In this document: positions 1-63,521 of the stretch, piece by piece
Layout: every line of letters begins with the position of its first letter
Numbering within the stretch: the stretch's first letter is position 1
Assembly (NCBI GenBank): GCA_015146655.1
Contig: VKHL01000001.1
Span: 241,501-305,500, forward strand
From: Ochromonas danica
Lineage: Eukaryota; Sar; Chrysophyceae; Chromulinales; Chromulinaceae
Direction: 5' to 3'
DNA length: 64,000 nucleotides
Made by a program: the position numbers and the translations under genes
The notes under the pieces: generated by a model
What the model was told of the DNA's origin: nothing
What the model saw: the letters and a program-made list of their open reading frames with translations, nothing else
Databases searched by the model: none

Positions 1-485
1 GTAGGATCAAGAGTAGTAAAATGAAATAACATTTTCTTTTGTTGTGAAAATGTCATTTTACTCATCTCAACTACAGCATTTTCTTGTAATGCAGAATCTG
101 TTAAAGGAATTAGAATTTGAAAAAAACTTCCAACAGGTTGCCATTTCAAGATATAAACATTTGGTGAATGAAAACGTTCATCAGGGAAATGTGTTTGTAA
201 TTGTTTGAATAGATAGAGATCTTCCATCCAAACATTTCTACGAGTTATATTAGTGAGAAGAAAAGTATCTTTCTTTTTCTTAGGAATGTCATTACCTAAG
301 GCAATTCTCCATGTTTGATTGATTTCTTCTTTTTGTAGTTTTTGTTGTCGATGTAATATTTCACGTTTTTTCGTATTTTCTTTTGTTGCTTTCTTCTTAT
401 TAGTAGTAGTATTACTATTGTTAGTGTTGTTAGTATTGATAGTGGTAGATGAGGACTGGAAAATAGAAGAGATCCAACTAAACAT
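1..485 (-). CDS. hypothetical protein, N-terminal part, cut by the window edge
   Basis: An open frame runs from ATG at 485 to the window edge without a stop, about 161 codons. The N-terminal 20 residues are Ser/Ile-rich. They are followed by an Asn/Thr run, then a very basic stretch rich in Lys and Arg (about residues 30-55). A folded-looking segment follows with TWRIALGND, RRNVWMEDLYLF and VYILKWQPVGSFFQI. I do not recognise the family. It is divergent from the START-like gene that begins 138 bp away, so the two probably share a promoter region. The codon use matches its neighbours. The frame is sound but the function is unknown, and the gene continues to the left of the window. Confidence 0.6.
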   Translation of the reverse strand, partial: MFSWISSIFQSSSTTINTNNTNNSNTTTNKKKATKENTKKREILHRQQKLQKEEINQTWRIALGNDIPKKKKDTFLLTNITRRNVWMEDLYLFKQLQTHFPDERFHSPNVYILKWQPVGSFFQILIPLTDSALQENAVVEMSKMTFSQQKKMLFHFTTLDP

Positions 486-623
486 AATAACCCACCATCA
501 AAATCCTTCTCAGAACTATTATGAAGCAATTCAATTCTCATCAATCAAATGCATTGCTGAGTTGAAACAGCTCCACCCTTCATCCATGGAATAGTGTGTG
601 GAGTGTGGAATCCGTGGAAAACA

Positions 624-1576
624 ATGATTCCATGGAAAAGAGAGAAAGTGGGTGATATTCATCATTCTTTCAACATGAAGTGGAAGTGCAGTGGTCAACT
701 CTGCTTTAGAGGCACAGTCCTTCTTGGATGCTCTATTTTGGGGGTTCTTCTAGTCTTGTTCTATAACTATGTTATGGTAATGAAGTTACCAACTAGTCAG
801 TATCTCCTTCCCGAAGTTCCCATCACCTCCGATCCTTATTCCCATGCAGGTCGGATGGTTGAGGAAGCAGAGCTGATCTGGGCATCCAACTCCACATCTT
901 GGAAAGAAGAAACACAATGGTTTTTCATGTGGCAGAGACAATCAATACTGGTGGAGTCTAAAGTAGTTGCTGGCCCATTGAGTGTTTTTGGACTGCCTGT
1001 ACTGCGCGCAACCATCACTTTCAACGCTTCAGCTGATGAACTGTTTGAATTTCTGACTTCTGTGGAAGGGTAAGTACCTATCCTAGCTATTTGCTATTCA
1101 TCAAACATAACTTGCTTGTTTTGACCAGCTTCCGGGTCATTGATCCTCTCAGTGATCCAACTAGCCTCGATCATGTCATCAAGAAGTGGGATTGGGAATA
1201 TGGTCGTCTAGAACTAGCTAGAACCACCTTTGGCTTAGATGACTTTCTTGTATTGAATTGGGTCAATCCAACCTCGAGATTGTTTTGCAGCAAGTCAGTT
1301 CTCCATGAATCTCATCCAGGAGGCAGTCGAGCATCTTCTGCTGCACTCCGTCCTGCACAAGGAAATAGAGCAGTTAACACATTCGCTCTCAAAGTTACCC
1401 CCATCTCAGATCATTCCAGTAGCATTCAGATCATCAACTTTGTTGGAGAGGAAAGGATTCTCAAGGGGTTTCTTGGTTATATTATTCTCTCGCAATTCTA
1501 TTTTGGTCCTTTTCTGAGACGACTTAGAGCATCATGGGATAGCCACAAGTTGAAACAAGTTCGAAATGAACTTTAA
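624..1576 (+). CDS. membrane-anchored START-like lipid-binding protein
   Basis: Two exons (624-1069 and 1129-1576) give 297 aa. The 59-nt GT-AG intron joins SVEG to FRVIDP in frame. A basic N-terminus is followed by one strong membrane segment at about residues 30-53. The rest is predicted to be soluble. Residues of about 120-265 carry features of START domains: ADELFEFL, then FRVIDP with an aspartate-rich turn, then YGRLELARTTF and DDFLVLNWVN. START domains bind lipids in a deep pocket; with one N-terminal anchor, this one may work at a membrane contact or within an endomembrane. The in-frame ATG at 624 is the first available. Family assignment is by motif pattern only. An alternative is another member of the SRPBCC superfamily. 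Confidence 0.6.
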
Positions 1577-1654
1577 ACAGTTGCCATTTATAGTCTTTTT
1601 AAATTTCTCAGATAACTCAATCTTGTTTCTCAAGTAAATTGATGGTTTACTTGT

Positions 1655-4357
1655 TCATTTACTGTCTCTGAGCCAGCTCTGAACTGTGGCCCACTTTTGA
1701 GCAGCTCTATTTTGAATTTCTCTTTCCTCTAGACACTGCTCGTAAAAAGTCATCCATATACGCCAAAAATGCTTTAGAACAGACTTTCGACCTCGTGGAG
1801 CCATAGCACGCATCGCTCGTGCCAATTCCCGATGGCACTTTTCGAAAGCAACTCTCCATGCTTGCCAAGCACGTCTTTGCAAAGTAAATCGCGAAAAATG
1901 TCCTGTTATAGCAATTGTCTTTGCTCGCAATACCTTGCGATACATTTTCCATCCTTGCCAAACTTTTCTCATTAGGGATCTATTGAAATGTGCGGACGCT
2001 ATCACTGTTTGCTGATGATCACGCCGATACCGCTCAGTCTTAACAGAGACCACATAACCTCTCAGTGCTCTCCAAATCCGCCCCATCAATTGCTCTTCAC
2101 GAAAGCGTTGTGCACGATCTTCCAATCTCCTATAACAACTCCAACATTTCAAACTGTATCCAGAACAAACAACCTATCATATAGTACCGTACCTCGTCTC
2201 CTCGATAAACCTTCGCCAAGGCGCCAGACCACATCTGATGAGTAACTGTCGCTGATAAAAGACACGAGCTCGATCTAACAACCTTCTCTGTTCATTCTGA
2301 AGTGCCAGTAAACGAGCATTTTTGGCTTTCTCTTCTTCTTTGCGACTGCGTGCCTCTTCACGCAATCTCTGAGCCTCAGCTTCCTCCTCTTTCAATTTTG
2401 CTCTACCAACATTCACATGAAAGAGAGCATGTAATTATTCAACACAAAGGAATAAGTATCACAAAGCGTACTGTTTAGCACGATCATTCTCAGCTTGTCT
2501 TTGTTGAACTCTCTCGAATGCTTGTTGTCGTAGCGCCTGTAGACGTTCTTTATGTGCTCGAGCACGATCATCAAAACCAGAACCATCACCATTTCTCATA
2601 GAAGATCCTCCGATTTTCTTGTTTTCTTCTTCTTTTCTTTCCGATTCCTTTGCCTCAGCAAATATTTGAGAATAAGAAGGTGGCATTTCAAAGGATGAGA
2701 GACTTTCAGATTGGTGGTCTGGTTGAGATGAAATATCCTCCATAACGGAAGTGGGAGGAGGCTCTTTGCTGCGTCTATCAGATGTGATTGTGGCTGTAAC
2801 TCTATTAGAAAGTCGTGAGCTAGTTGGTGGCCTTTGAGACTTAGCCCCCATGTCCTTAGAAATTCGGTTCTGTGCAGCAGAGTTGGCGGTTGTAGTGCCA
2901 AGTCGAGACCGGCTACTTGGACGCGGCTTTTCTTCTTTGGCCTGATTACCAACTTTATCTAACAAGGCATGAATCTTTTGTCGTCGAAGGAGATGTTCTT
3001 CTTCCAGTTTTCTGATTACAAAGCATCAATGAACATTTGCATCCCACCACATAAACAAGACATTCATACCTGGACTCTGTAGCCAGCTTTGTCACTCGTC
3101 TCCAAGGTCTGAAGACACTCAACAGCAAGTTTTTCCTTCGAAAGTGGCGAGCTCTTTCTCGTCTATTTATTCTCTATTAGAAATAGAATCAATAAGCGTG
3201 TATGTTTGCAAAGCAGGTTATGATTTGCAGCAACAATCTTGGTGATACCTTCTTCAGCATCCTGCTCATCAGCACAAGATGTTGAAGTCGTCGTAAAACC
3301 CTGCGGATAGATCTATATTGACCATATTTCGCCGCAGAGTAGTTGGATAGCTTTGATCGCATAGAACCCTGTATGATACATTGAATCGTTCGTATGATAA
3401 CATGGTCGAAGCAGTCATACAAGATTATTTCCTCACCTGATGCCAACGCTTTAGACATCGAAAATAGGTGTATTTCTATCCAAAAACAATTATTGATAAG
3501 TGAACAGCTTTTCCGTATGTCATTAGATATACCTCATGATGAAATATAGCTCGGCATATTGTGTACCAATTTCGCAACACAGTCTTTTTAATCCAACGTT
3601 TGTGTAAGACATAACAGGCTTGTAGAAGGACAGCATCTCGATCTCTCTTAGCTAGGATATAACTCTTCCAGTCACGTAAGCACCGTCTCAGTGTGACTAC
3701 TCTTACTTTAGAGCTAGCCAAGAGATCCTCAGAAGAGAACATTGTTGAATTATAATCAGGCACAGGAAAAGCTCGAAGAGGAGAGGGTTGAGGGGTATGA
3801 TCACTATCACTATAACTAACACTATCATGATAAAGAGAGGAAGACTTGTGTTTTCGTGGAGATAAAGCAGCTTTACGCAATCCTTCAAACGGAGATTGAA
3901 CGATTTTTAACTCTCGAGAGGAGCGTGTGGGTGATGCAAGAGGCTCGGCAAAGTCAGGTTGAGGGAGGGACACAGCAATGTTTCTGGTTGATTTATAATC
4001 TAAATGAGCGCGCCATGAGTGAACAAGCTTGATTGGAGCAACGGGCTCCTCTTTCCCTGTCTCTCTGGTACTATGAGATGATGTAGTAAGACGTGTTGAT
4101 CTACTGGCTGATGCAGGTGAACGAATAGATTTTCCCTTCTCAATATACTTGTTTGAGTTGCCAATAAAGAAATCTTGATCATCAATGATGGTGCGATCTT
4201 TATTGTTGTTCTGGTTGATAGTATGATTGTGTTTCAAGGAACTACCCGCTGAGACTGGTCTTGATCTTCGATCAGCATAAGCTTTACGAGATGATTCTAA
4301 TCGATCATCAACAAATTGATCAAATTCTTTTGTTGATGATGTTACCACAGATCGCAT
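1655..4357 (-). CDS. Sfi1-like centrin-binding repeat protein
   Basis: Seven exons read in one frame to give about 778 aa: 4357-3533, 3475-3437, 3368-3249, 3173-3070, 3011-2472, 2402-2193 and 2153-1655. Residues 1-220 are Ser/Arg-rich and disordered. After that come repeated short helices with a Leu-x-x-Trp pattern, such as LRDWKSY, VLRNWYTI, LKRWHQ, FRPWRRV, APWRRF, VWQGWKMY, AWQAWRVA and FWRIWMTF. This is the Sfi1 type of centrin-binding repeat, found in spindle-pole, centrosome and basal-body fibres. A Lys/Glu-rich coiled coil lies in the middle. One intron is only 39 nt and one exon is only 39 nt. The start is the first in-frame ATG, and extra 5' exons cannot be excluded. It is divergent from the dehydrogenase gene. 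Confidence 0.72.
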
Positions 4358-4591
4358 CCCTTCTTTCAAAAGAAATCAAAAACTGAGTCCTGTGAGCACT
4401 TTTCACTTTTACCACTTTAGCAGCTTTTACCTCTTTTACCCTTTTTCCCAGCCTTGTGCATACAGCAGCAGCTTTGCCTCTTGTTGGGATGGATGAGATC
4501 GTATATGTTTGCGTTAAGGTCCATTTCTTCCTGTCGTAAAATCAAGAGAGCTTTCTCCCACTTTTCGTATACTTTGAAAGATCGAGTAAAA
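4358..4591. promoter_or_regulatory. divergent promoter region with three TTTTACC motifs
   Basis: This is the spacer between the starts of the Sfi1-like and dehydrogenase genes. TTTTACC occurs at 4407-4413, 4425-4431 and 4434-4440, all on the plus strand. The same heptamer or its complement occurs in two other head-to-head spacers in this window. A role as a promoter element is inferred from repetition only. Confidence 0.4.
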
Positions 4592-5737: not shown

Positions 5738-5921
5738 TTTATTTACAATTTTCATCTTACCAGCTATCAGACAGTTGATATCCTACTTCGTGGATTCTCT
5801 TAATTTGCTGCACTAATTCTTTTTGTAAAGCTGTAATTAAGTCATGCGAGTTGAATAAACATAACCACTGTCTCCACATACAGCACAGCAAGGATGGAGT
5901 ATTGAATCAACATTAAGAATG

Positions 5922-7822: not shown

Positions 7823-8091
7823 TTCATTCAATCTGAATTAGACCTTCCTCATCCCCTCTTTTCTCTTTCAACACTGGGCAGCTGAATAATTCACCATCGC
7901 CCCGCAAAGAGGGGGCAAAGAGCTAAATCTGGGCATTTGGATATCATTTCCAACTATTTATTCCATGGAATGAAGGATCGCCACTATGAAATTCCTCACT
8001 ATTGCGTGGGGATGTCATAATTTGAGTTGATCTTCTTTGCAAAAACAAAATTCGGAAGTCGAGCTGGTGGAAGTTCGAACTGAAAGAAGGA

Positions 8092-10342: not shown

Positions 10343-10533
10343 GTCTGCGGCTTCCTTAGCGTGTTTCCAAGCCATGCTGTGCTCTATTACAACGTTTATT
10401 TATGAAAGCCACTCTGTGAGAGATAAGCTCCCATGGTATGAGCAAGCTTTATCTTTTGTTAAATTAAAACTACCACTACCAACAAGTCGACTAACCAACC
10501 ACTCCGAATCTAAAACGTCATTACTATAGAACA

Positions 10534-11529: not shown

Positions 11530-11900
11530 TCCTTGGTGTTGTTTGTGATGAGAGAGACGAAGAAACGCGTAGGAAGATGAAAAACTGCTTTTCCGTTACA
11601 CACACTTCATAACACCAAGCCACATGCACCATCCCCAATGTTGATGAAAGTCTAAAGATTGATACTTTCCCTTAGCAGTTGATAGTAAATTACGTATTAA
11701 CCAAGAAATTTAAGTGCAGGGTGTGCCTTCTTCTTCTAATTTGACCTTCTAAAGGTCAACAACACAACTTGCCCACCATTCAGATGAGAGACGGACCCAG
11801 ATGGCCAGACTTCGTGCCAGAGAGCCAAACGAAACCACTCAAACACAAACACGACACATCCTGTGACATCAAATAGTATCAATCAAGAACAACCCGAACT
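11530..11900. other. divergent spacer between P4H-like and GFA genes
   Basis: 371 bp with no ORF that I can support. The stretch 11,800-11,835 holds three CCAGA boxes, like those in the 47,409-47,619 spacer. It presumably carries both promoters. Confidence 0.4.
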
Positions 11901-12578: not shown

Positions 12579-12798
12579 CTCAATAGAATTCATGATTCAA
12601 GCTATTACCACATTAATGATGCAGTTAGTTCTTAGTCATAGAGTGGATTAATGTCATATACCATAGAAATGTTATTGCTCGTGATCAAATTATGGCGATA
12701 ATTTAACTCACGCTGATCGTTCAATAAGGTAGTAGTGCTATAGTGGAAATGATTGATTGCTAATGCTATTTCCATTTCTTTTGCGCATTGATTCACAC

Positions 12799-16023: not shown

Positions 16024-16374
16024 GATGATTGTCTTATATGATGATGAGTGAGTATACTGTTCTGTTCTCCTTCGTTCTCCCCACTCTGTTTGTTAGTGAT
16101 TTGTTTTGTTTCTTCTTGTGATCCAATGATGATGATAATGCTTGTTGTTGTTGGTGGGAGAAGAGAGAGAGAGAGGGCCTGCTGCGACTGCATGTGTGGG
16201 TAGTACTATTGCGTGTTGTTGGTGTGAGTAGTACTATTGCGTGTTGTTGGTATTGGAGTGAACACGAAACTTCAGATACCCGAAACTCCAAATATCCGAG
16301 AGATGTGTGAGGAGAAGGACAAGCTGTTGTTGTGGCGGCATCAAAAGCACCACTGCCGAGTGAAGAAATAGAGG
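16024..16374. other. divergent spacer between H+-ATPase and mL46 with a 28-bp tandem duplication
   Basis: 351 bp without a gene. A 28-bp unit containing TAGTACTATTGCGTGTTGTT occurs twice in tandem (about 16,195-16,251) with one mismatch. The rest is plain sequence with a short GA run. Confidence 0.6.
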
Positions 16375-17598
16375 ATGATGATGATGAATGCTGGTCGGAG
16401 AATCCCTAGTCTTTCTACTAACTCTGCTGTGAGAAGACTTCTGTCCACAGTAAGTGAGACTCCAAAGAAACCTTTTCGTCCTGTACGAAAAGTTCGAGGT
16501 CGTCGACCTGTTCTCCTCGAACAGGAAGCACGTAATGCCCAATTAGAAGAGAAAGCATTGAAAGAAAATCTTCCTTGGCGTATTGTTGGCTCTGTGTAAG
16601 TTGTTTATGATAAAGATGATTATTGACTATAGTAACTGAGCATGATGATGATGATGACTCAACTCACTCAACTCATTCATTGTTGGTTTTAGTGTTCTTC
16701 ATCGCTACCCTGTCATCACTCCTGATCTTGAGCAATGGGAGATTGACTTTGAAAACCTGAAAAATAAAAAGCAAGAAATGCATGGTGAAGTAAGTTCTAC
16801 TTTGGTCATGATTGACTTGTGTTAAAGTTGGTTCTTATTGCTATTGCTATTGTCTAATTATTATTATTGTTATTATTATTTGTCTTATTCTGTTATTAGC
16901 ATTTACTGAGTCTGGTCAGCGAGGATTCAAAAGAAACTTTAGGACTTACACTTCCAGAAATTGTGAGTATCTTTTACTTTCTATTTTTCTGATAAATGAT
17001 CTGTTTGGACTGATTCTGGTTATTGTATTTGATGCATGTTGTTGTTGTTGTTAGACTCATGAAGATGTTTTGCTGTCATTGCCATTTGAGCCTGCACCTC
17101 GTGTCACTGAAGCAGGTCAGCTAACAGTCAGTCATTCTCATTACTCTACTATTCTCTAATGTTAAACATCTGCTCTTAGATAAGACGGATAATAGAAGAT
17201 CAGTGGAAAGAAAGTTGCAAGAATCTCTCTTCCTTGTCGTCAAACGTAACCGTGAAAATTATAGTTGGCAATTCCCACAAGGCAAGTGGTTAGAAGGTGA
17301 AACCTTGCGCCAAACATCTGAACGTGTTTTGAAACGTGCTATCGGCGAGGTCTCGTACTATCCAATTGGAAATTTCCCTGTTGGCCACTACTTATATGAA
17401 TATCCAGAGGAAATGAAGCAACAGCGTAAAGCCTTTGGAGCCAAAATATTCTTCCATCGGATTGGTTATACTTCTGGCGATGATTTCAAGTTTGAGACAA
17501 GGCTGTACAAAGACTACGTATGGGTAACTAGAAGTGAATTAGGCGAGTATTTTGATGAGGAAACTGCAAAATACATGCAATTCATGGTTCCATATTAG
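16375..17598 (+). CDS. mitochondrial ribosomal protein mL46 (Nudix fold)
   Basis: Five exons (16375-16595, 16693-16789, 16900-16962, 17055-17115 and 17180-17598) give 286 aa, close to animal mL46. The N-terminus (Met-rich, then RRIPSLSTNSAVRRLLS) is a basic, Ser-rich mitochondrial presequence. The core has VVLHRYPVITPDLEQWE, typical of the mL46 N-domain, and then a Nudix-like fold with WQFPQGKWLEGETLRQTSERVL. This segment lacks the full catalytic Nudix box (REXXEE), as expected for the ribosomal protein. It is part of the large mitoribosomal subunit. All four introns are GT-AG and hold frame. The start is the first of four tandem ATG codons (16375-16386); any of these would serve. Confidence 0.9.
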
Positions 17599-18740: not shown

Positions 18741-19095
18741 CTTCTTCTATTTCTTCTTCTATAGAAAAATAAAGGCAATAAATAATGCTTGGGGAGCAGT
18801 TGATTCTATCCCATCCCGTCAACATTCGAAACGAACAGAGCAGTGAGCCAAATATCTTGAATTTAGAGATCTAGATTTAGAGAGAGATCCAAATGTAGAA
18901 AATTGGAGATCTGGAGATTCTTCAGAAGGTGGTCAAGCGGGGGTCAAAGAAGGCAAAGAAAGCTGAAAGGAAAGCTGAAAAGGCAAAATTCAATTACAAT
19001 TACTTCTTCTTTGAAGTGTCAGTCAATTGATTCATTGTCAGTATTAAGTTAACAGGATTATTGATTATTGTACTTTGTGAAGCAATGATTTGAGA
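18741..19095. other. divergent spacer between BTB and AAGAB genes
   Basis: 355 bp with no gene seen. It has several AGATCT/ATTTAGAGA repeats at 18,858-18,925. It presumably holds promoters for both neighbours. Confidence 0.4.
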
Positions 19096-20471: not shown

Positions 20472-21084
<613 letters not shown>

Positions 21085-21297
21085 TTATATGATCGAGTCG
21101 CAGTGGGTCACAGTGGCTGGCTGGTTTATGTGGTTCGCAGCAGGTTGTCAAACTACACTTTCTGCGTCTAAAACTCATAATATGAGGACTTCGTGTGGCT
21201 TCTCGTCCTTCCCTAACTTCCCACCAACCAAAGAGGTTTGTGGCTGGAAAAACACCTTACGACGAAAGTGTTTTTCAGGCAGAATGTGCTTGGAAAC

Positions 21298-23451: not shown

Positions 23452-24027
23452 GGCACAGCAGTCTTCTTCTTCTTCTTCTTGGCTGCTATGCTGTTGTGCT
23501 TGTGCATGACTGACAGAGCAGCAGTGGAAGAGAGAAACGAAGACAAGAAACGCGTTTATTGTGTGAAATGGATTTGACTCTTGATGATGATGATGATGAT
23601 GATGTTATTGGTCAATACCCGGAGCAGCTAGATAGTCAATGACTTGCTGTGTGGGTGAATGGGACAGAGCAGAGAGCACAGAGGTGGACGGACTTTGTTT
23701 GACTCTTACTCTCTCTGTGAGTGAGTTCATCCTCCATATGGATTCTACCCATGAGTGTAATTATGACTGACTCTGACTGACTGTGTATGTGCAGTGGAAA
23801 GAGCAAACAGACCATTATCTTTGACTTTCACTATGACTATAGCGGATGAGGTTTTGATTAGGATGAGGATATAGTGATCGAAATCAAATCCTATCAAATC
23901 CTGCATCACACCAGAATACAATTTGACTGACCCATTCTATCCCATCCTATGCCATTCTATCCTTCTTCCTCTCATATCAAAGACACAAGATGAGTCAGTC
24001 ATTCCAAGAGCATTTTTGAAAGCAATC
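23452..24027. other. divergent spacer between GDT1-like and ankyrin genes
   Basis: 576 bp, the longest head-to-head spacer. It has short CTT and GAT microsatellites near the GDT1 start. No ORF with an ATG is convincing. It may include an untranslated exon of the ankyrin gene. Confidence 0.4.
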
Positions 24028-29234: not shown

Positions 29235-29267
<33 letters not shown>

Positions 29268-29815: not shown

Positions 29816-30016
29816 TCTTTTATTTTATTTTTTATTTAATTTTTACTATTGCCTGGTCTAACGAGTTCTCATCACTGTTTGTCACAACGACAACAATCAC
29901 AACACGGCAGTTTCACCATGACCAGTATTGGGATATTCGGATATTCGAATATTGGGATATTGGTATATTCGTATTCGAACATTGATTAATTATAAGTTTA
30001 CAATTATCGCAGTTCT

Positions 30017-33000
30017 TTATCCAAATGCCTCCTCAACAGCATTTTGATAGTCAATACTACTTTCTTTCGGCTTCTTCACAGGCTTCCCCAATTTCTTCAC
30101 TGCTGTATTATCTGGCACAGCATGTAGTGCTGACTGCTGGAGAACATGACTCCCTACACCCATAGATTCCAATGAGAGAACTAGATCTGTATAAGCATTA
30201 AGACCTATTCGTTGCTTGAGAAGTTCTCTTAAAGCACCAGCACTGCGTTCCATATCCAGCAAGCGATAGGTGACTTGTTGGCTTGCCATAGTTTGGTCAA
30301 TCCTCTTCTGCACCTCTTCAGCATTCTATATGGTCCACAAATACAGTTAATTAATACACCAATCAAATACAATGTAGATTCTTCTTACCATGGCTTTCAA
30401 TTCATCCCTTTGCTTTTGTAAACGAGACAAAGAATCACGTAATCTCCGTACTTCTAAGAGAACAATCTGTGCAGCTTCTCGTCGAGACATAAGGCCTGAA
30501 CGAGGAAGAGGACGCTGTACTGGTGGTAATGCAGATGGTTTACTAGCTCTTGCAGGAGGGTTAGGCATGATTAGCTTCTGATTGACTCCACCATTGATAC
30601 CTTGCTGGCGCTGTTGCCATTGTTGGTCAGTCACAAACCCAACCTTACGAGACGTTTTGATTGGTTTACTTCTGTTTGTCACACGATCTTCTTCTTCTTC
30701 CTCCTCCTCCTCGTTATGTCCATTATCTTCATGAGGCTTGACATTTCGTTGATGACTGTCTTCAAGCAATCTTCTCAATTGGTCTAACTCTGCTTTGAGT
30801 AATTTGACTTCTTTACGACTTCTTGCAACTGCTTCTTCTTTATCCAGTAAATCATGTAAGACAACATCTCTTCGTTTAGCAAGAGAAACATTACAAAGTT
30901 CAAGTAATTGTAATTGTAGATTTTGAATACTTGCACGTAATTCATTATTTGTTGCATTGAGTTCTCTGTGATGAGTATTTATCATGTGGGCATATGATAT
31001 TAGCCATCACAAAGGGATTGAAATTAATAGAGTTAATGGAAGTGTCTCACCGATTTAAAGCTTTTTCAGCAGCTAAAGCAGCAATATTAGCATCTTTATC
31101 GCCTAGTTCTTGTAATTGAGCTTGAAGTTGTAATACAGATAGCTTGAGTTGAGCCAAACTATCCGAAGCACGAGCCCAACGAGGTGATAAATGAGAATTA
31201 CGTTTCCAGAGATCCCAATAGATCCGCTTCACTTTCTCATGATTATATCCCATTGCACGCATCATTCTAATCAACAACACAAAGTAAGTTAGTAAGTGGC
31301 CCCCATCACATAACAATCCATTATCACAAGTCATCACAAACATGTCATATTTACCTGAAAACACATTTCCCAAGATGTTTGCGATTTTGAAAGGCTTTAT
31401 ACCAAACTTGCCAAAATTTACGACGTAGTTTTAATGTTTTCTTTTCAACAAAGTCAAATCGTCGAATATCTTGTCTTTTCAAGTCTTTGGTTGCTGCCAA
31501 CCATTTGCGAAATCCTCCACGAAGTTGATGTCGATTACCAATATCAACCAACTTACTCAATCTATTATCACAAATGACGAAACCAGTGTTATTTAGAGTG
31601 TTTAAGCTTCATAATGAAATGGAAGGGAATACCGTTTGAATCGTTCGCTCACAAGGCCTGCTTCTTGTTCACGTACACGCTCTAACAAGGCCAAGAGATC
31701 AGCATCATGTTTTAATCCTCGCATTTCATCAATTTCTTCTTCATAAGAGGACAACAAGTTTGGTAATCGACCTTTATTATTATTCCGATTAGCATGAGTA
31801 TGTGTCAAGACAGCTTGTTCAACCTCAGCAGAAAGAGTGAGGAATATCGTGTAAAGGTCATAGAAGTCTTCCACTAGATATGATAGACTCACTAGTAATA
31901 CCTCATAGAAGTTGAATGTTGCAAAATGTTTGTTAACAATCTCCTCTTGTCGTGTCACAAAAGAAGCTATACGAAGAAGTACTTCCACACTATTTCCTAT
32001 TATCTCTACTAGATTACATGGATTTTCTTTGTTTTTGATATATCGATGCATAGCAGATAAGACAGCTGATTGTTGTACAATTTGTCCTTGTTCTATAGCA
32101 ACTTGTAATGCTGATAACAATTCATTTTTCACAAGATAGTCTAATTCTCGACTATTAGCAAGTTCTTCCATAGATAATGCTGTAGAAGTTACACCACGAT
32201 TACGACTAGAGTTGATCTGAGAGCCTAACAAGCAATGCTGTAGCAAGTCATGTAGACGTGATAGCACTCCCTCTGTAGAGGTAAAGCAACTCTCTCCTCC
32301 ACTAGCCTGAGCCATACTCTCTGCTAATAGTTCTGCCATTAGTACCTCTCGTGGTGTATTACGCTTACCTTCTTTCTCTTCAGCAGTACCTTGTTTAGGT
32401 GCACAAAGTTGTAGATAGCGACTTTGATAGCGATTCTTTCGTTCTTTAGACTTGGGTAACTTTCCCAAAACAACACTAATATAGTCATCAAGATCATGAC
32501 GATCTTTCAATACTAATATCCGAAGAGAAATCAACTGTTCTCTCGCTTGATCTAACTTATCAAGATATTTCAGAACACTTCCTCTTCCATCTCGATCAAA
32601 AGGTTGGAAGTATGGTAATTGGAAAGACTGTAAGACGTGATTGATTGGTGAAGAAGGTAAAGACACAGCAGCAGCAGCAGCAGCAGCAGCAGCATTATTA
32701 TTGCCCTTGTTGGGTTGAACATTTTGTTGAAACTCACTTGGTCCACCAGGTTTAGAGGCCTCTGACTGTGCTTCCCCACTGATAGGTGCTCTTGTACCAT
32801 CGACTGAGTCAGCTATTTCAGCATAAGCTGGGAGGTCTGAATCGATAGCCTGACTGGTGACAACACGATTAACTGGAGGATCAGCTGCTGCTTTGGGGAG
32901 GTTGAGTTCGGGTAGAATGAGACCTTCATTTCTCTCCAACCCTCCACCTCTCCCCATCATTAAACCACTACCAATATCACCAATACCAACACCACTACTG

Positions 33001-33503: not shown

Positions 33504-33665
33504 GTCTTAATTTTGATCATACTGTTACAAACAAACAAGGTGATGAGATCGTGTGGAATTTGAGTCATTCCATGGAATTCAAATTGATATAGAAAAGCGC
33601 GTTTCTTCTGTAAAACGGGTTGCTGAAGTTGTTGCAATTTCCTCTCCTTTTCACAACAGAGAAGA

Positions 33666-37205: not shown

Positions 37206-37402
37206 CCTTTTCTCTTGTGATGATGGTGGAGGTCAATCGATGGATAGTGGACAACATCAAATCTAGAACCTTTCTCATCTACAACCCTTATATTGGATTA
37301 TTTAAATCGAAACTACGGTAAAACCCAGAGTTTTACCATGTGGGGTGGTAAAATGAGAAAACGGTGTTGCCGAGGTTTTGATGCAAAAACAAAGACAAGA
37401 AG
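37206..37402. promoter_or_regulatory. divergent promoter region with an 8-bp inverted repeat GGTAAAAC/GTTTTACC
   Basis: This spacer lies between the unknown helical protein and chorismate mutase. A perfect inverted repeat (GGTAAAAC at 37317-37324, GTTTTACC at 37330-37337, 5-nt loop) is followed by another GGTAAAA at 37347-37353. The heptamer is the same as in two other divergent spacers. Binding by a dimeric factor would fit. Confidence 0.42.
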
Positions 37403-38495
37403 ATGAATCCTAAAAGCACTCGGTGGATCATTCTACTTCTGACTATACACTTTACTTTAGCTTTTTTTATTAGATTCTATTCATCTAGTAGTCATGTTCG
37501 TGTTTATGGAAGTGGCAGTTTGCAGTCAACCATCACGACCTCTGAACTGCTCTCCTTAGAGTCTATCCGATCCACTCTTATTCGACAAGGTCAGTATACC
37601 TTACTTTTGCTTCTTCCTGACTTTCTTTTCCTCCAACTTATTCTTATATCTATCTTACTTACTAGAGGAGACCATCATCTTTGCACTTATTGAACGTGCG
37701 AAATATCGTCGCAATTATGCCATTTATGATGCGAAACAGTCAAAATATCGCAATATCTATGGTACTCCTATCTCTTTTCTAGAGTGTATGCTAATTGAAA
37801 CTGAAAAACTACATGCTAAAGTTCGTCGTTACACTTCCCCTGAAGAGCATGCCTTCTTCCCTTCTTTCCTACCCGCTCCTGTCCTTCCTGAACTACAATT
37901 CCCTGAATTACTCAAAGTTGAGAAAAATGCAGTCAATGTGAATCATGAAGTCTTACGATGGTATGTCTCCAAGATTATTGATCGACTCTGTGCGGAAGGA
38001 GATGATGAACAACATGGATCCTCCGTCCTCAGTGATATTGCAGCTTTACAAGCAATTTCTAGACGTATTCATTATGGAAAATTTGTTGCTGAATCGAAAT
38101 ATCTTTCAAATCCTGAGTTATTTGACAAGTTAGTACAAGATGATGATGCTGTTGGAGTGTTAGAAGCATTAACTAATGTGGAAGTTGAGCGTGGTGTTCT
38201 ACGACGAGCTTTTATTAAAGCTCTTCATTATGGACAAGATATCACAGGATCTACAGAAGGGAGTAAGATTGAAGCTAAGTTGATAGCTGACATCTATCGT
38301 GATATGATCATCCCCATGACGAAAGATGTTGAAGTGCGTTATATCTACTTACGAATGGGTAGACATCCTCCACCTCCTGATGTCTACTATGCTCATTGTC
38401 GTGGACCCTTGGATGCATTTGATGATAAGGAAGCCTTAAGGAAGTATTACATGCCAATTAGTGGTGATGACATCATCAAGTCACAAACGGAATAA
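37403..38495 (+). CDS. chorismate mutase (eukaryotic AroQ), plastid-targeted
   Basis: Two exons (37403-37589 and 37666-38495) give 338 aa. It turns chorismate into prephenate for Phe and Tyr synthesis. The first helix, spanning the intron, reads SIRSTLIRQEETIIFALIERAKYRRN, the classic AroQ helix 1 with its catalytic Arg. Downstream blocks fit the plant/yeast enzyme: LLKVEKNAVNVNHEVLRWY, SDIAALQAISRRIHYGKFVAESKY and RGVLRRAFIKALHYGQ. The N-terminus is a signal peptide (WIILLLTIHFTLA) with Phe-Phe right after the likely cleavage point and then a Ser-rich stretch, which is the bipartite plastid signal of algae with complex plastids. Allosteric control by Tyr or Trp is likely from family knowledge but cannot be judged here. 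Confidence 0.9.
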
Positions 38496-39017
38496 TAAAG
38501 TGAATGTGTGGATTGTAGTGTAGTATGGTTGTTAGTGAACTTAGGACTGATGGAAATTAAAAAGAGTTTAAGAGATTCTTTAGAGAATGGCCTAGTATCA
38601 ACTGGTCCCATTTCTTCATCTCGTTGGAATAGGCGAAGGAAATATTCGCCACTTGTTGGAAGGAAAGCAAGGAGATCTAACTGCAAGAAAAGCGTTAAAG
38701 GCCTATTTGAGGAGTTAGATCGTCCTGCTTTCCTTTCAAAGTGTTACAATATCTAGTAGACTAAGCAATTTGTGTACTCTGCAGGAATTCCCACTACATA
38801 CGTACATGTAGACGGCTGGGCAGGGCTGGGTGTGTAATTCTGTTAAGTTAAAGAACGCGCTTGTTCTAGAAACACGTTTCTCCTTCCCCACAAGGCATTG
38901 GTGCTGACCATTGAATTGTTGAGACCAAAACAAATAAATAACTAAATAAACAAATTATTAAATAAATCAACTCCCTCCCTCCCTCCCTCTTTCTCTCTTT
39001 CTCTCTCTCTCTTGACC
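38496..39017. other. spacer between chorismate mutase and DCAF13
   Basis: 522 bp between two same-strand genes. A frame of about 69 codons from ATG at 38550 to 38756 exists on the plus strand but shows no family, and I do not call it. A CTCC repeat passes into a CT repeat at about 38,969-39,013, directly before the DCAF13 start. Confidence 0.45.
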
Positions 39018-40915: not shown

Positions 40916-41004
<89 letters not shown>

Positions 41005-41925: not shown

Positions 41926-42156
41926 GAAATAATGGATGAACAAACAAAACAATTTCTCACTCGAATGGATTATACCGTATTTTACCACACTTTCGACCAC
42001 TTTTGTCCACTTATACCACCTTTTGACGTGGTGGTTTGGTGGATTGATTGCCATCCATTAGAGAAAGAGAAAATTGATTAGGTCGATTTGCTTGCTCTTC
42101 TCTATCTCTTCTGATTCAAGTCTACTTCATTCTATTTCTCCATTCTTATCAAAAAG
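41926..42156. promoter_or_regulatory. divergent promoter region with TTTTACC and related motifs
   Basis: This spacer lies between the exonuclease and IMP4. It has TTTTACC at 41980-41986, next to degenerate relatives (TTATACC twice, and several CCAC boxes). If the exonuclease starts at 42054, part of this would be coding. Confidence 0.32.
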
Positions 42157-43094
42157 ATGTCTGTTCGAAGACAGATTCGTTTACGTAAAGAATTCTTACA
42201 AAAGAAACATGAAGAAGCACAACAAAGTCAAACTAATGAGAAAAAGCGTAAATTACATGCTGCTATTATAGAAGGCAAATCCATTCCAACAGAGATTGCT
42301 CATGAAGCTAGAAGTCTTCATCATGATATGGAAATGAGTGTTCAACCCTTTGATCCAACTTCCAACAAAGCTGTTATTGATGATGAATACAGTAAAGTGG
42401 GTCTCTATGAACCAAAAGTCTGTGTGACTACTTCACGTGATCCGTCAAGTCGATTGAAACAGTTTGCTAAGGAAGTCAAATTGATTATTCCTAATGCACA
42501 AGCAGTAAATCGTGGTAATCATCGTACAGATGAGTTAGTAGAAGCATGTCGGAAGGCTGACTTCACAGACATGCTCATTGTGACTGAGACAAGAGGTCAA
42601 CCTGATGGGCTCATTGTTTGTCATCTCCCTTTTGGACCAACAGCATATTTCACATTGACTAATACTGTGTTAAGACATGATATTCCTGATGTTAGTGCTG
42701 CCTCACAAGCTTATCCTCATTTAATAATTGATGGATTGAATTCTGTGGTGGGACAACGAGTTGGACGGATCCTACAAGCACTTTATCCTATCCCTAAAGC
42801 TGATTCCCATCGTGTAATTACTTTTGCTAATCAACAGGACTATATCTCTTTCCGTCATCATATGTACACTAAAGAGATGGGCAAAGTCGTGCTGAAGGAA
42901 GCTGGTCCACGCTTTGAGATGATGCCTTATGAGGTGAGTGAATGATAAGTACTTGTTGATATTGGTATTTGTCTTTAACTTTGTCTAATGAATGGTTTCA
43001 GATTCGATTGGGAACAGTGGATCAGAAGGAGGCAGAGAAGGAGTGGGTGTTACGGCCGTACATGAACACCGCCAGAAAGAAGCAAGCACTCTAG
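42157..43094 (+). CDS. IMP4: U3 snoRNP protein IMP4 (Brix domain)
   Basis: Exons 42157-42933 and 43002-43094 give 289 aa, the normal length of IMP4. The start MSVRRQIRLRKEFLQKKHEE is typical. A Brix domain covers about residues 80-255 (VCVTTSRDPSSRLKQFAKEV, ITFANQQDYISFRHH), including the LIVTETRGQPDGLIVCHLPF block. The last exon supplies the conserved tail EIRLGTVDQKEAEKEWVLRPY. IMP4 with IMP3 and MPP10 joins U3 snoRNA to the pre-18S rRNA in the nucleolus. It is divergent from the exonuclease gene across 231 bp. Confidence 0.96.
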
Positions 43095-43429
43095 AGATAC
43101 TGTGTGTATCAGCAACATTCACTGCGAGCTTAGTATAAGAGAAGGGTGATGGTCTTCGATCACGATTTGTTGTGAGGAGGGATGAGATAAGATGGGAAGG
43201 AATTTCTTGTAATTACTACTATTGTGATAATAGCACCATCCCTCTCTTGACACTTATTCTATCATCTTATAAAACCGTGAAGTATTGTCTTTTTATTCAC
43301 TCAGAAGAGTTGCGTTGTACTGCTTAGATTGTGAGTACATCATCATATCAGACAGCGAGTTTTGTTTGCGTGTGATGGTGGCCGTTGTCACAAAATACGA
43401 ACAAAATTACAAAATAGAAAATTGTCATC
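43095..43429. other. spacer between IMP4 and the small FHA gene
   Basis: 335 bp between same-strand genes. Nothing beyond ordinary AT-rich sequence is seen. It should contain the 3' end of IMP4 and the FHA promoter. Confidence 0.4.
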
Positions 43430-47408: not shown

Positions 47409-47619
47409 TTTCAATTTAGGATTTTCTCTGGACCAAATCGAAGGGAAATGTTTCTCTTTGTTGATTCATCCTGGCATCATCAAGCAGGAACCCACCCAGA
47501 ATGCCAGAACGCCAGATTAGCAGATTTCTAAATTGCTAGAATCTGGGCGTCTAGCCTCTGGCCCCACTGACATTTGATCTTGTTGGTGTAGCCTAGTAAA
47601 GAGGGAAAAAGATCTGATC
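47409..47619. promoter_or_regulatory. divergent promoter region with an imperfect hairpin and CCAGA repeats
   Basis: This spacer lies between the prolyl-oligopeptidase-like gene and VPS26C. CCAGATT-AGCA (47512-47522) pairs with TGCT-AG-AATCTGG (47534-47546) around an 11-nt loop with a 2-nt bulge. Three CCAGA boxes precede the second arm within about 25 bp. A similar cluster of CCAGA boxes lies in the P4H/GFA spacer near 11,800. Confidence 0.35.
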
Positions 47620-50016: not shown

Positions 50017-50320
50017 GATTATTTTATTCTTTGTTTGGACTCAATTTCCTTTTTAACACTCTATTAACTCTAATAACTCTAACCTACCAACAAGTTGGAA
50101 ACGGATTGGTTGTTGTTGTGTTGTCCTTAACATGGCCGTTACAACCATGACTTATAAGATCTAAATTTAGCCTTTTATAAGTGACTGTTTAGGGTTTGAG
50201 AATGAGGGAAAACGGTTGATTTTGCAACGATCGATCAACACAACAACAACAAATCTCGATAACCTATCTGTATTGCCCCCTATTTCTTTCTGTTTTGTTT
50301 TTGAATAATCTATCTTAACA
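50017..50320. promoter_or_regulatory. divergent promoter of RSPH14 and the EF-hand gene with nested palindrome
   Basis: The 304-bp spacer has ACTTATAA (50150-50157) and its complement TTATAAGT (50175-50182) around a perfect 10-bp palindrome CTAAATTTAG (50161-50170). It sits roughly midway between the two start codons. No clear RFX X-box was seen. No other gene is apparent. Confidence 0.42.
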
Positions 50321-55653: not shown

Positions 55654-56385
55654 TTAGTGTGCAGTAGTATCCACTTCCTCTGTAGTCTTAGTAGTGGTAG
55701 CGGTTGTTGTAGTAGATGAAGAAGAAGACTGATGATCTACAGGAAGAAGATGATCATGTAAGTAATCCTTGAAATCATCAACTTTCCATCCCTGTACAGA
55801 CAATGTCTCTACCGCACCAGCAGCAGTAGTAGCAGCTGGTTGTTGTTGTTGTTCTTCTTCCTCAGATGTTTTGTACATGAACAAACGTGGACTAGCAGAA
55901 GCTGAAGAATAACGAATACGTAGTCTTAACTCTTTCTTCATCTTAATTACTTGAGCTATCTCAGGATAGAACATTAATACTCTTCGATCAATTTCAAGAA
56001 CAGCATGATGATAAAGTTCTTCTTCTTCTCCTTCTTCTGTTGTTGTTGTCGTCAAAAAACGAATTTTCGTACAACATGACTTACACGTTGAGGTCAAAAG
56101 ATCGTATTGGAGGTGATTATTGTGATTGTTATTGTTAGTTTGACTTTGAAGATGTTTGTCAATAATATCACAAGTACGACATGATAGAGTAGTTGGATTA
56201 AAACCAAAAGTCAGACAGTTATTGTCATCTACTACTGCTGTTGTTGATGGTGATGATGATGATGATAATGATCCTTCTTCAAGTGAACTACTACTAGTAG
56301 ATATCACTAGCAAACTCAAGAGAAAGACAAGGAAGAAATAGTAAAGAAAAGAACCGACCATTCTCTTTTTTGATGCCATGACCAT
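55654..56385 (-). CDS. SELENOF (Sep15)-like ER protein without the CxU redox motif
   Basis: A single exon codes for 243 aa. It opens with a signal peptide (SFLYYFFLVFLLSLLVIS) and a Ser-rich run. The body aligns along its length with SELENOF: CLTFGFNPTTLSCRTCD, then STCKSCC, then AVLEIDRRVLMFYPE, then LRLRIRYSSASASPRLF and LSVQGWKVDDFKDYL. In the human protein the third block reads EVCGUKLGRFPQ. Here the Cys-Gly-Sec is replaced by Asp-Arg-Arg, so the redox site is missing while the N-terminal Cys cluster that binds UGGT is kept. Asn, Thr and Gln runs are inserted between blocks. It probably works in ER glycoprotein folding as a non-redox UGGT partner, but this is inference. Confidence 0.72.
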   Translation of the reverse strand: MVMASKKRMVGSFLYYFFLVFLLSLLVISTSSSSLEEGSLSSSSSPSTTAVVDDNNCLTFGFNPTTLSCRTCDIIDKHLQSQTNNNNHNNHLQYDLLTSTCKSCCTKIRFLTTTTTEEGEEEELYHHAVLEIDRRVLMFYPEIAQVIKMKKELRLRIRYSSASASPRLFMYKTSEEEEQQQQPAATTAAGAVETLSVQGWKVDDFKDYLHDHLLPVDHQSSSSSTTTTATTTKTTEEVDTTAH

Positions 56386-56858
56386 AATGATGTGTGAAAT
56401 GGTCTTCCAGCAGATGATGGAACAGGAGCGTTAACTTAAGACAAGAAGAGTTAACTTAAGATAGAATTAAGTTAAGAAGAGAGTGACAGCGTTGGGGGAG
56501 AATTTACATTCATGGAGGCAATTTACATGATGATGTAACTACTCCCAAATTTCACTTGTAAATGACTTCATTATCACAATTAAAAAAGGGATAGGGATGG
56601 TTCAACTTAGACACCACTCAATTCTTTGAACTTACATGTTAAACGAAAATAAAGTGACAGAATGGTTTTCATGGGCTATATATAGAAGACCACTAGGCAT
56701 AGACTACTTGGTTACAGTCTACTAGGCTATGCCAACGAACATTCTGCAGGAGAATAAAATTAATAAGCATGCATCAATACAACTGGCAACACATAATAGT
56801 CTTACAACAATAACACTAGTAGCATCAACAGTTTACATTACATTTCTTACAGTTTACA
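56386..56858. other. spacer with an 11-bp hairpin between two same-strand genes
   Basis: 473 bp upstream of the SELENOF-like gene and downstream of the 1561-residue gene. GGCATAGACTA (56,696-56,706) pairs with TAGGCTATGCC (56,723-56,733) with one mismatch. TATATA lies just before. No ORF is supported. Confidence 0.45.
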
Positions 56859-59800
56859 TTACATCATTCTTCGATTATTCATATTAACAGCAGCAGAAGA
56901 TATTGAATTAAGATGACTGTTAGTTGAACTACGATCTGACATAGTTGTAGCAGAACCAGATATACTCATTGGTCTAGCAGATGATGTTAAAGCAGGTAAT
57001 GAGATCGTTTGACTGCTTTGAATTAATGTCTTCCTTTGTGCTTTCATCATTTTACGTTCTTGTTGTACTTTCTTCCCACTTTCTGTCCTTTTAGGAGAAG
57101 TTCTTGTTGGTTGTCCTTCTTCAGGTTCTAAATTAGTATAACAAAGTGGACAATAGGTTAACGAATCTGCTGAACCACCACGTAGTTTACGTTCTGCAAA
57201 CCAATTTAAACGAACTTGTGACCATGATTGATGCATTATACCATACTTCTCGACTAATTTTTCAATAGATGGCATTAATGCTAAACAAACATGTAAACGT
57301 TTCCGTAACGTTACATAATCCATATGTACAGTATAATTAAGAAATTTCTTAAGATGATCAAATTGTAAGACCAATTGTTGTAAATTTGGAATATACGATG
57401 GATCATGCATTAATGCAAAGAAGAGAATAGCAGCAGGTGTACGATCACGTGCTTGAATTACTTCCATTAATTCCATTTCTAAATCTTCAATTTCTTGTTC
57501 TGTCATTTGTAATTCTTGTTGTAAACGTGTTATAACTTCTAATGCTTGTTCCATAGTAGCATTAGGTGGTAATGTAGCATTAGGTGATGACGATGATGGT
57601 TTATGAAGTGTTGGTAAAGGATGGAAATTAATTGTTGGTTGAATAGGTAAATCAGCCCATGAACCTGTTGTTGACATTCCTTCCTCTACCATCATATAAG
57701 ATGCTTGATAGTTACGTTTGAAATGTGCTGGTAGATATTCTTCTACACGATATCGTTGACAACGTTCTTTTACTGCTAATAGACGTTCTTGTATTTCTAA
57801 GACAATCCCTTGTGTCTTAAGGAAGGAATCATATGTCTCAGCAAGTTGTGTATTTTCTTTTGTTAAGACTGCTAATTCATTTGCTGCATTAGCATGAACA
57901 CGATCAAAAAATGATCGAAATTCTAATAATCGTAAATTATTTCCAATTAATTGTGCTTCAAGATCACCATTTAATCTAATGGTAACAAACACGACAACCA
58001 ACCAACAAGATCAGAACAAATTAAGAGAAAGAAATAGAGGAAGGAGGAAGGGATGATAATGATGATTACCTACCTGACAATATCTAATACAGAACTTTGA
58101 ATCATTTCTGCTTCTGATCCTTCAAATTGAATGGCTCCACCTTCTCCTATAATAGGATTTCCATTTGTTCCATTTCGTATCGTAGTTCTACGAATATTTT
58201 TAATAATTTGAATTAAATTTTTAGTAATATTATCAATTGTATCCATAAAGGGTAACATCATTTTACAATCATCCCATAAACGTTGCATATTATTCCATAA
58301 TAATGGTAATAATTCTAACCATTTATGATCTTTTAAATCTTGTGGTAAACATGCTTGTAAAAACCGTTCATTTTGTAATTTATTTAAAAAAGGATGAAAT
58401 TCTTTATAAATAATTGATAATGGATCATCTACTTGTTTTAAATGTTCTTCAAAAGTGATTAATTCTGGTGATAATTTATAAGTTCTGGTAATTAAAATAT
58501 CTGCTTGATTATCATAAATTGGCAATTCCCAACCACCACCACCATTATTATTGCTATTATTAGTATTATTCCCGCTATTGTTTGTTTGTGTTTTATTTGC
58601 TCCAGCACCTACAGTACCACCATCATCTTTGTCTAATAATCCACCAAAAACGGTTGAACTAAATGAACTTGTAAATGAAAGAGCACTTGATCCACGTGTA
58701 CCAACTCCTCGATTAACATGTCCTCGATGACTACTACGACTATCTTGACGCATGAAAGGTGGAGTATCATCAGTAGTACTTGTTGCAACTTCTTTTTTAG
58801 GTAATTTCATTCCTGTTGCATCTTGTGGTAGAGAGATTTTAATCATATCCCAATTAACAGCAAGAGCACCTGTAGCACTATTACCATCTTTAACAATATT
58901 TGATAAAATATGATTAATCATCTCCTTTACACGATGTGCTCGTGGATCATCTTCATTGAATCCAAGATTACGTCCCACTAGAAAAACAAAATAGAATAGA
59001 CAAACAAAACAAATTAATAAACTATCCTATTATAAGAAACATGAGTGACAAGAGTACCTTTCTGAAGAATGAGACTATCTAACGTATGCTCTGTGAGAGG
59101 AAGGTTTGCAGATTTTTGTGGACTACGACTGGGTGTTCTTGCATTATTACCATATCCACGAAATTCAACCTTCTTGACACGACGACGATGTTCATCTTCT
59201 TCTCCTTCTCGACTAGATAAACGACGATTACTTGGTGTACGAGATGGACTTTCACCACCTTTCTCTCGAGATCGAGCACGTTCATCATGAGCAGCATCAG
59301 ATGAAGCAGAATTCATAATAGGACTACGAGCTTTAGGAGACCGTGCCCTCGATGTGGGACTACCTTTTCGAGGTCTTCGTTTTTTACCTGTTGGACTCTT
59401 TCCTGATGGTTCTCCATTTTCTTGAATGGAAGCTAAGTACAAGGCACCTGCTTCATCGGTATTAGCTGTGACAACTGCAGGTGACCGAGATTGACTGGCC
59501 AATTGTCTTTTCTTCAGCAATTGTCCACTCACTTCAGAGTCAGTTTCAATCTCATCCGTGTAAATCATACTCTTCCCCCCACGTTTAGACATATGTTTTT
59601 CCTTCTTGCGTTGTTGTCTACGACGACGCCTACGCCTACGCCTACGACGACGACGTGCTTCAGAACCATCACCATCATCATCATAATCGTCATCATAATC
59701 GTCGTCATCAAAATCGTCATCATCATCATCGTCATCATAATCACTATCATCTTCATCTTCTCCCTCTTCAATAGAAAGTTGGGAAACAACAGAACCTTCA

Positions 59801-61722: not shown

Positions 61723-62059
61723 TCTTCTTTATAATCTATCTTTCTCACACCTTTTTTCTTTGCTTTTTTTTTTTTTTTTTTTACTTTTTAAGTATATCCT
61801 CTACCACATTTATCTCTATCAAAGTACTAAATTGATAGACCAGCTAATTTATGGTATGAAAGACACCAAACCCAACGACAATGAAACGGCGACGGCACAG
61901 CAGCAGGTGATTTATTATTGTGTTGCGAGGGAGACCACCGTCATGGCTGCGTGACATGGCCAACAGAGAACGTCACGTGGTCTTCCTTTTGCACAAGACA
62001 AACACAACAAGAAAGAGACAACAAATCTTCTTGCAACATCTCCCTTCAATTTGCAGAAT
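61723..62059. other. divergent spacer between the 1561-residue gene and ChlM
   Basis: 337 bp with a run of about 20 T at 61,765-61,785 near the minus-strand start. No gene is seen. It should hold both promoters. Confidence 0.45.
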
Positions 62060-62940
62060 ATGTGGTCTATTATTGCTTTGGTTTTGGTTAGTCAATATCT
62101 TCTATGTGCAACAGCATTCCGTACTTTGCCATTTAATCGTGCAAGCAATACTTTCCAATCATTGAGTGCTAAAGTGGATGATAAGGCAGAAGTTACACAA
62201 TACTTCAACAATGAAGGCTTTGATCGTTGGAATAAGATTTATTCCGAGTCCGGTGAGGTAAACAAGGTTCAGCTGGACATTCGCAATGGTCATCAGCAGA
62301 CCATCGACAAGGTTCTGGGCTGGCTCGGCAAGGAGGACAATGCTAAGAAATCCCTCTGCGATGCTGGCTGTGGAGTGGGATCTCTTGCACTCCCTCTTGC
62401 CACTAAGTTTAAGTCGGTCTCTGCTTCTGATATTTCTGCTGCAATGACCAGCGAGGCTGCAAAACGTGCCAAGGAACTGAAGATCAAGAATATTAAGTTC
62501 GAGACCAGCGATATGGAGGCTTTGAAGGGTTCTTATGACACTGTCACTTGCATTGATGTCATGATTCACTACCCTTCTGCAAAGGCAAGCCTGAGAATTA
62601 GTCCTTGTCATTCTGTCCTTGTGTGGAACTAACATTCTTTCCATGTGGAACTAACATTCTGTGTTTACATTCTGTACAGTTGCCTGAGATTGTAGGCAAG
62701 TTGGGAGGTCTTGCAAAGGAGCGCCTGATCATCTCCTTTGCTCCAAAGACATTCTATTTCGAGTTGTTAAAGAAGATTGGAGAGCTTTTCCCTGGAAAGT
62801 CCAAGACCACTCGCGCGTATTTACACACCGAACAGGATGTTGTTAAAGCTCTTAAGCAGGCGGGATTCAAGGTGCGTAGAACTGAGATGACAGCTACTAG
62901 CTTTTACTTCTCTCGTCTGTTAGAGGCTGTTAGAGAATAG
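62060..62940 (+). CDS. chlM: magnesium-protoporphyrin IX methyltransferase, plastid
   Basis: Two exons (62060-62584 and 62680-62940) give 261 aa. It methylates Mg-protoporphyrin IX with SAM in chlorophyll synthesis. The SAM motif is LCDAGCGVGSLALPLA, and the downstream blocks are diagnostic: CIDVMIHYP, LIISFAPKTFYFELLKKIGELFPG and EMTATSFYFSRLLEAV. The N-terminus is a signal peptide with CATAF, the Phe-containing cleavage motif of complex red-type plastids, followed by a short transit part. The intron starts GC rather than GT (AAG|GCAAGC), and splicing there gives exactly the expected HYPSAK-LPEIV junction. It has more G/C-ending codons than its neighbours. The gene shows that the organism is photosynthetic or of recent photosynthetic descent. 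Confidence 0.96.
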
Positions 62941-63103
62941 AGTTTTGTGTCAATCTAAATATTGTAAACGCCATCCTCATTAGCTTTGATTAGTTGAGGC
63001 AATATGCTGTACAAAATTACATACTCCATTAATAAAGAGGACCACGGTTGGTTTCTTCTTTCAGGGAAAGTCTGCAGACACAATGATCTTGACAGACATT
63101 CGT

Positions 63104-63521
63104 TTACACAGCCATGCCAGGTCGTCTTTGAGAAAAATCCACTTCAGGTTCATCAAAAGTCTTATGAGGACCACGACAACAGCCAGGCGATCGCAAGTCT
63201 CCCCCACAACACGAATAGAAGTTATAAATATCAGCAGCACCTTTAGTCTCTCCAGGCGCCATCCAACGCTGGGCAGTCTCACCTGCGTAACTGTTGATCA
63301 AAAGCAGAGGCAAACATCAGATTGATGACTCAACAGCTTCGATAATCAATCAGAGGAAATGGATGAGCAACAAACCTCTCAGGATGGAATACACAAGCTA
63401 AAGGACTATTCTCTTTAAATTGCATCAAGCAAATCCGGCAAGTTCTTGATACAGCTTTCTCTTGATTACCAATTTTCACTTTTGACATCCTTAATACCAC
63501 CATCTCCTCGTCGTCGTTCAT
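63104..63521 (-). CDS. small Cys/His-rich protein, CHORD-like zinc binding
   Basis: Two exons (63521-63376 and 63290-63104) give 110 aa. Joined, they show CRICLMQF, then CVFHPESYAG, then YSCCGGDLRSPGCCRGPHKTFD. The order C-x2-C, C-x2-HP, CC, GC, G-x-H is like a CHORD domain, which binds two zinc ions in SGT1/HSP90 partners. Spacing differs and there is only one domain, with no CS domain. It could be a distant or stand-alone CHORD, or another zinc module. The start ATG is followed by an acidic MNDDEEMV. The last codon lies 163 bp from the ChlM stop in tail-to-tail arrangement. Confidence 0.6.

Follow-up and report, generated by a model that had tools for sequence, protein, structure and literature searches.

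Gene Content and Strand Order of the Window

The window, a stretch of 64,000 nucleotides on contig C1 (G000:C1:241501-305500) of an assembly of 31,187,593 bases in 337 contigs, carries 33 predicted genes between positions 1 and 63521. Genes were predicted by a GHMM gene finder that combines a 3-periodic order-4 coding model with learned splice sites and decodes both strands at once under an equal strand prior. The finder was trained on the sequence itself, with the window among the training data, and predicted genes scoring below 5 or having fewer than 150 coding bases were left out before counting (146 of the 149 genes predicted in 344 kb were kept). The introns are short and of the GT-AG type, with the donor consensus G|GTAAGT and a median length of 77 bases (n = 211 introns).

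Many gene calls are backed by Pfam matches, which were sought mostly in the longest exon of each gene: 2-hydroxyacid dehydrogenase, SIN1, NUDIX, BTB, adaptin-binding p34, S30, carbon-nitrogen hydrolase, GDT1, FGE-sulfatase, chorismate mutase, Sof1, Brix, FHA, S9 peptidase, VPS26, CFAP97 with EF-hands, and methyltransferase. The exonuclease and SELENOF labels given in the first-pass annotation correspond to Pfam matches below the curated cut-offs. For the gene that it labels NACHT, the long exon shows nothing in Pfam at E 0.01, and the ORF at 41068-42054 retrieved nothing from a search of solved structures. At the Sep15/SelM-like locus, the 106-aa model of the gene finder is probably too short, the ORF reaching 56385. 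No SECIS element or other Rfam match at the gathering score was found in the window.

The strands of the 33 genes switch at 28 of 32 junctions (p = 9.7e-6 against a rate of 0.5), and 12 settings of the gene and intron penalties gave 27-28 switches in 31-35 junctions. Thus, a strand-neutral gene finder reproduces the near-perfect alternation that had been described earlier, including the same four same-strand junctions (Table 1). The short gaps are recovered as well: head-to-head gaps measure 133-576 bp (n = 14) and tail-to-tail gaps 47-531 bp (n = 14), nearly the earlier figures of 138-576 and 47-531 bp.

Table 1. Strand order, head-to-head gaps and same-strand junctions in the window (window coordinates; genes given as left / right)
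Feature	Position	Length (bp)	Strand	Genes and remarks	Source
Strand order	1..63521		-+-+-+-+-+-+-+-+--+-++-++-+-+--+-	33 predicted genes	gene finder
Head-to-head gap 1	486..623	138		no Pfam match on either side in exons scanned; right start 624 or 780 by model	
Head-to-head gap 2	4358..4591	234		no Pfam match in exon scanned / 2-hydroxyacid dehydrogenase	
Head-to-head gap 3	7823..8091	269		SIN1-like / no Pfam match	
Head-to-head gap 4	11530..11900	371		2OG-Fe(II) oxygenase / GFA-like, both below curated cut-off	
Head-to-head gap 5	16024..16383	360		P-type ATPase / NUDIX	
Head-to-head gap 6	18741..19095	355		BTB / adaptin-binding p34	
Head-to-head gap 7	21077..21297	221		ribosomal protein S30 / carbon-nitrogen hydrolase	
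Head-to-head gap 8	23452..24027	576		GDT1 / ankyrin repeats	
Head-to-head gap 9	33504..33665	162		FHA / FGE-sulfatase	
Head-to-head gap 10	37206..37402	197		no Pfam match / chorismate mutase	
Head-to-head gap 11	41926..42156	231		DUF5710 and weak RNase_T match / Brix domain (IMP4 of the first-pass annotation)	
Head-to-head gap 12	47409..47619	211		prolyl oligopeptidase / VPS26	
Head-to-head gap 13	50017..50320	304		RSPH14-like / CFAP97 with EF-hands; sole pair with evident shared function	
Head-to-head gap 14	61723..61855	133		no Pfam match, 1561 aa / methyltransferase	
Same-strand junction 1	29816..30019		-	NACHT / FHA (labels of the first-pass annotation)	gene finder
Same-strand junction 2	38493..39017		+	chorismate mutase / Sof1-domain protein (DCAF13 of the first-pass annotation)	Pfam
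Same-strand junction 3	43092..43429		+	Brix / FHA	Pfam
Same-strand junction 4	55975..56861		-	Sep15/SelM-like / 1561 aa	gene finder, Pfam
Sep15/SelM-like ORF	55654..56385		-	Sep15_SelM match below curated cut-off	Pfam

Genomic Setting

The chlorophyll a/b-binding family has 47 matches in the genome, some of which are exons of one gene, and the organism is therefore a photosynthetic alga. It is probably flagellated, judging by the relative of RSPH14 and the CFAP97 domain encoded in the window. The adjacency of rbcL and rbcS on C193 and again on C289, two contigs considered through their matches only, suggests a red-type plastid, although one of the contigs could be foreign. The two rbcL-rbcS loci may represent two plastid sequences, or one of them may come from a companion organism. 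For the fusion of triosephosphate isomerase and GAPDH, which we take to be a stramenopile mark, no contig carries matches to both enzymes (C106, C160, C45, and C306 versus C116, C73, C58, and C23, respectively), and the GAPDH motif is absent from the three triosephosphate isomerase loci examined. The enolase of this genome matches many kinds of solved enolases. Cryptophyte phycoerythrin alpha found no match, and the control queries found none either. Across the sampled contigs, 10-kb stretches have GC contents between 0.375 and 0.553, a spread that might be produced by two mixed organisms; however, the GC3 of most genes in these contigs extends from about 0.2 to 0.75 continuously, without a clear gap, and the introns are alike in both groups, so that one organism is likelier.

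Strand Switching Outside the Window

Strand switches were also counted in 280 kb outside the window, comprising 60 kb to its right on C1, 50 kb of C2, 50 kb of C3, 40 kb of C20, and eight single stretches of 10 kb; together with the window, about 0.34 Mb of the 31.2 Mb was sampled. The standard gene models yield 102 junctions there, of which 63 switch (p = 0.011), distributed as 16/25 on C1 right of the window, 13/17 on C2, 10/14 on C3, 6/16 on C20, and 18/30 in the single stretches, among which that from C10 holds one long gene model and provides zero junctions. When the seven junctions between paralogous genes are set aside, 62 of 95 switch (p = 0.0019).

These counts depend on the gene models. 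The 12 penalty settings, applied before the extension of C20, gave 53-59 switches in 82-113 outside junctions, and the highest intron penalty brought the outside rate to 0.52-0.58. Since same-strand neighbors may be fused via a false intron, each of 237 introns was forbidden in turn and the cost of the split was recorded; the gene was then split in 47 cases. With doubtful introns treated as boundaries, the 63 outside switches fall among 102-127 junctions, a rate of 0.50-0.62. Addition of splits costing less than 2, 4, 6, 8, and 10 log units, paralogs being left out, changes the count to 62/100, 62/103, 62/107, 62/112, and 62/120 (p = 0.011, 0.024, 0.061, 0.15, and 0.39, respectively). The outside rate falls in the range 0.5-0.65 and is most likely about 0.6, and the bias outside the window is modest, not secure, and hinges on the gene models. 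The first-pass annotation had suggested a genome built on bidirectional promoters. The 280-kb sample weakens this genome-wide reading, as the sampled rest of the genome reaches about 0.62-0.65 at best, C20 stays below one half, and conservative gene models lower the rate to 0.50.

Given such counts, the genome might have no true strand bias at all, the window being a striking one picked from many windows and features. We assign this reading a small but appreciable probability: the finding was indeed chosen as striking, C20 shows no excess of switches, and the outside rate comes to about 0.50-0.55 under conservative models. However, at a rate of 0.5 the number of windows expected to reach 28 of 32 switches among 487 is 0.00, and 90 of 155 non-paralogous junctions, window included, still switch after addition of 28 doubtful splits (p = 0.027). 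At rates of 0.618 or 0.653, the chance of at least 28 switches in 32 junctions is 0.0014 or 0.0045, equivalent to 0.7 or 2.2 windows among about 487. At these rates the window represents the upper extreme of a mild bias and not an instance of a strict rule, although, picked as it was for its alternation, it differs from the outside sample in a direct comparison (Fisher p = 0.008).

Another explanation confines strong alternation to low-GC, conserved, single-copy regions and has it absent where duplication is recent. The six sampled groups, window included, differ in switch rate (chi-square p = 0.015), the low-GC contigs outside the window switch at 44 of 64 junctions versus 19 of 38 for the high-GC contigs (Fisher p = 0.09), and six of the seven paralogous junctions are same-strand. 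On the other hand, the groups are no longer different once the window is removed (p = 0.19), the division by GC was drawn with the data already known, and C3, though assigned to the low-GC contigs, resembles C20 in mean GC3. We consider such a regional restriction unlikely.

Gap Lengths and Possible Shared Flanks

Gap lengths were measured between the coding ends of predicted gene models. Throughout the 344 kb, the median gap is 315 bp for head-to-head (n = 46), 190 bp for tail-to-tail (n = 45), and 655 bp for same-strand neighbors (n = 43), the latter value becoming 544 bp without paralogs (n = 37). Head-to-head gaps are shorter than 600 bp in 42 of 46 cases and are shorter than the same-strand gaps without paralogs (Mann-Whitney p = 3e-5). 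tRNA genes do not explain the length of the same-strand gaps, as there are none in the window and five in the 344 kb, four of these on C20, the least alternating block.

If every gene had its own 5' and 3' flanks, a same-strand gap would be as long as the mean of one head-to-head and one tail-to-tail gap. The observed same-strand gap is 1.82 times this additive expectation (95% bootstrap interval, 1.43-2.77) and 0.91 times the full sum of the two (0.74-1.39), which is the pattern predicted when flanks are shared at both kinds of opposite-strand boundary. With eight doubtful splits the ratio to the additive expectation is 1.62 (1.17-2.18); with all 28, the same-strand median drops to 326 bp, the ratio becomes 1.05 (0.58-1.50), and the gap test fails. 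The bidirectional promoters suggested earlier are thus in line with the short head-to-head gaps and with gap lengths that fit shared flanks under the standard models, but not with the gap test under the most conservative ones. Promoter regions common to divergent pairs are plausible.

We therefore favor, with moderate confidence, an account in which the compaction of the genome creates a modest genome-wide bias through cheap common boundaries and the window belongs to its upper tail. In this account the window is a gene-dense nuclear stretch of a photosynthetic, probably flagellated alga. Divergent genes may both start from one open-chromatin region, and a single short 3' region may serve both members of a convergent pair, whereas same-strand genes would require a full 3' flank plus a full 5' flank, at a higher cost in DNA. 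Because both opposite-strand boundaries would be cheap in DNA, neighbors would tend to occupy opposite strands, at about 0.6-0.65 switches per junction genome-wide. We infer that an open region is common to the divergent pairs and that compaction, not co-regulation, keeps the arrangement. Among 12 blocks of eight junctions, the relation between alternation and shorter opposite-strand gaps is weak and non-significant (rho = -0.31, p = 0.32). A further proposal, which we rate as quite unlikely, is that parts of the genome are organized so that almost all boundaries between genes are common start or end regions. Alternation above 0.85 would then be an architecture at the level of domains, maintained by selection for compactness, and it would be stricter than in any genome known to us.

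Candidate Promoter Elements and Functional Relations of Divergent Pairs

The palindrome AGATCT ranked first among 841 6-mers (in a test whose p-value counts a palindrome twice) and among 64 palindromes (p = 3e-5 by sites). It occurs in 15 of the 46 head-to-head gaps but in none of the 45 tail-to-tail gaps. We rejected it as a bidirectional promoter motif, since it is also present in same-strand gaps (14 of 43) and has no fixed place in the gaps; none of the elements found in these tests marks head-to-head gaps alone. In coding sequence AGATCT occurs at 0.49 per kb, and the density of GATC is 1.41 per kb in tail-to-tail gaps and 2.27 in introns compared with 4.82 in head-to-head gaps and 5.02 in coding sequence. 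The AGATCT pattern is less the mark of a bidirectional element than a reflection of how scarce GATC is in introns and 3' regions.

According to their domains, one of the 14 head-to-head pairs in the window appears functionally linked, the putatively ciliary RSPH14-like and CFAP97-EF-hand genes. Eight pairs have domain matches on both sides, found mostly in scans of the longest exons, and no evident link; in the remaining five, a partner is without a Pfam match in the exon scanned. Promoters that are truly bidirectional and co-regulate both genes of a divergent pair, as proposed in the first-pass annotation, would agree with the short head-to-head gaps and with the ciliary pair. Yet the eight pairs with no evident link and the presence of AGATCT in same-strand gaps argue against them, as do the divergent pairs of the brown alga Ectocarpus, which are uncorrelated in transcript level according to the portion of the report used here (Pearson 0.042 for all pairs and 0.054 below 600 bp; PMC7784034). 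We regard co-regulation as very unlikely to underlie the arrangement, and co-expression of the divergent pairs should not be assumed.

Comparison with Other Genomes

The layout looks like that of Ectocarpus, where, in the sections of the report drawn upon, neighboring genes show a tendency toward opposite strands, a feature reported as unusual, and 61.7% of the genes at 5' intergenic regions belong to divergent pairs (PMC7784034). The corresponding share in our genome is 64/103 outside the window and 92/135 in all. The same sections give median gaps of 409 bp for divergent and 2293 bp for same-strand neighbors in Ectocarpus, as against 315 and 655 bp between coding ends here, measures that are not strictly comparable. 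They also describe one common nucleosome-depleted region in divergent pairs below about 600 bp (PMC7784034), for which the 42 short head-to-head gaps noted above would be short enough. As in the Ectocarpus type, divergent gaps are much shorter than same-strand gaps under the standard models (315 versus 544 bp without paralogs). A genome-wide majority of opposite-strand neighbors would be a further similarity; outside the window, 63 of 102 junctions switch under standard models, the fraction declining to 0.50 with conservative ones. In contrast to Ectocarpus, the present genome is dense and has 31 Mb, its window alternates more strictly, and its layout is known from sequence alone.

A survey of 64 eukaryotes found mostly about 50% co-directional pairs with few exceptions, in the part cited here (PMC2871058); our genome, under the standard gene models, likewise departs from this value, as do four exceptions whose direction is not given in that part. 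The same source describes mammalian divergent pairs that have bidirectional promoters and, in fungi, divergent pairs that are conserved (PMC2871058); the head-to-head genes studied here resemble them in being less than 1 kb apart. There, the conserved pairs tend to have a common function, whereas a link is evident in one of the 14 pairs of our window.

Thus, the alternation is a known kind of compact-genome feature found in a further genome. This second algal genome, much smaller than that of Ectocarpus, shows a similar tendency and, under the standard models, has gap lengths that sum as expected for shared regulatory DNA. It offers a simple test of why alternation arises: if compaction drives it, the switch rate should track gap length both within and between genomes, in pairs without co-expression.

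Paralogous Neighbors

Four paralogous genes of 532-576 aa follow one another on the same strand on C1 to the right of the window (L004:787 to L005:163), where they are part of the longest non-alternating run. In addition, two paralogous 453-aa genes with equal model scores lie head to head on C80 (L017, C80:50001-60000, positions 4048-7213), and this pair is likely an inverted duplication.
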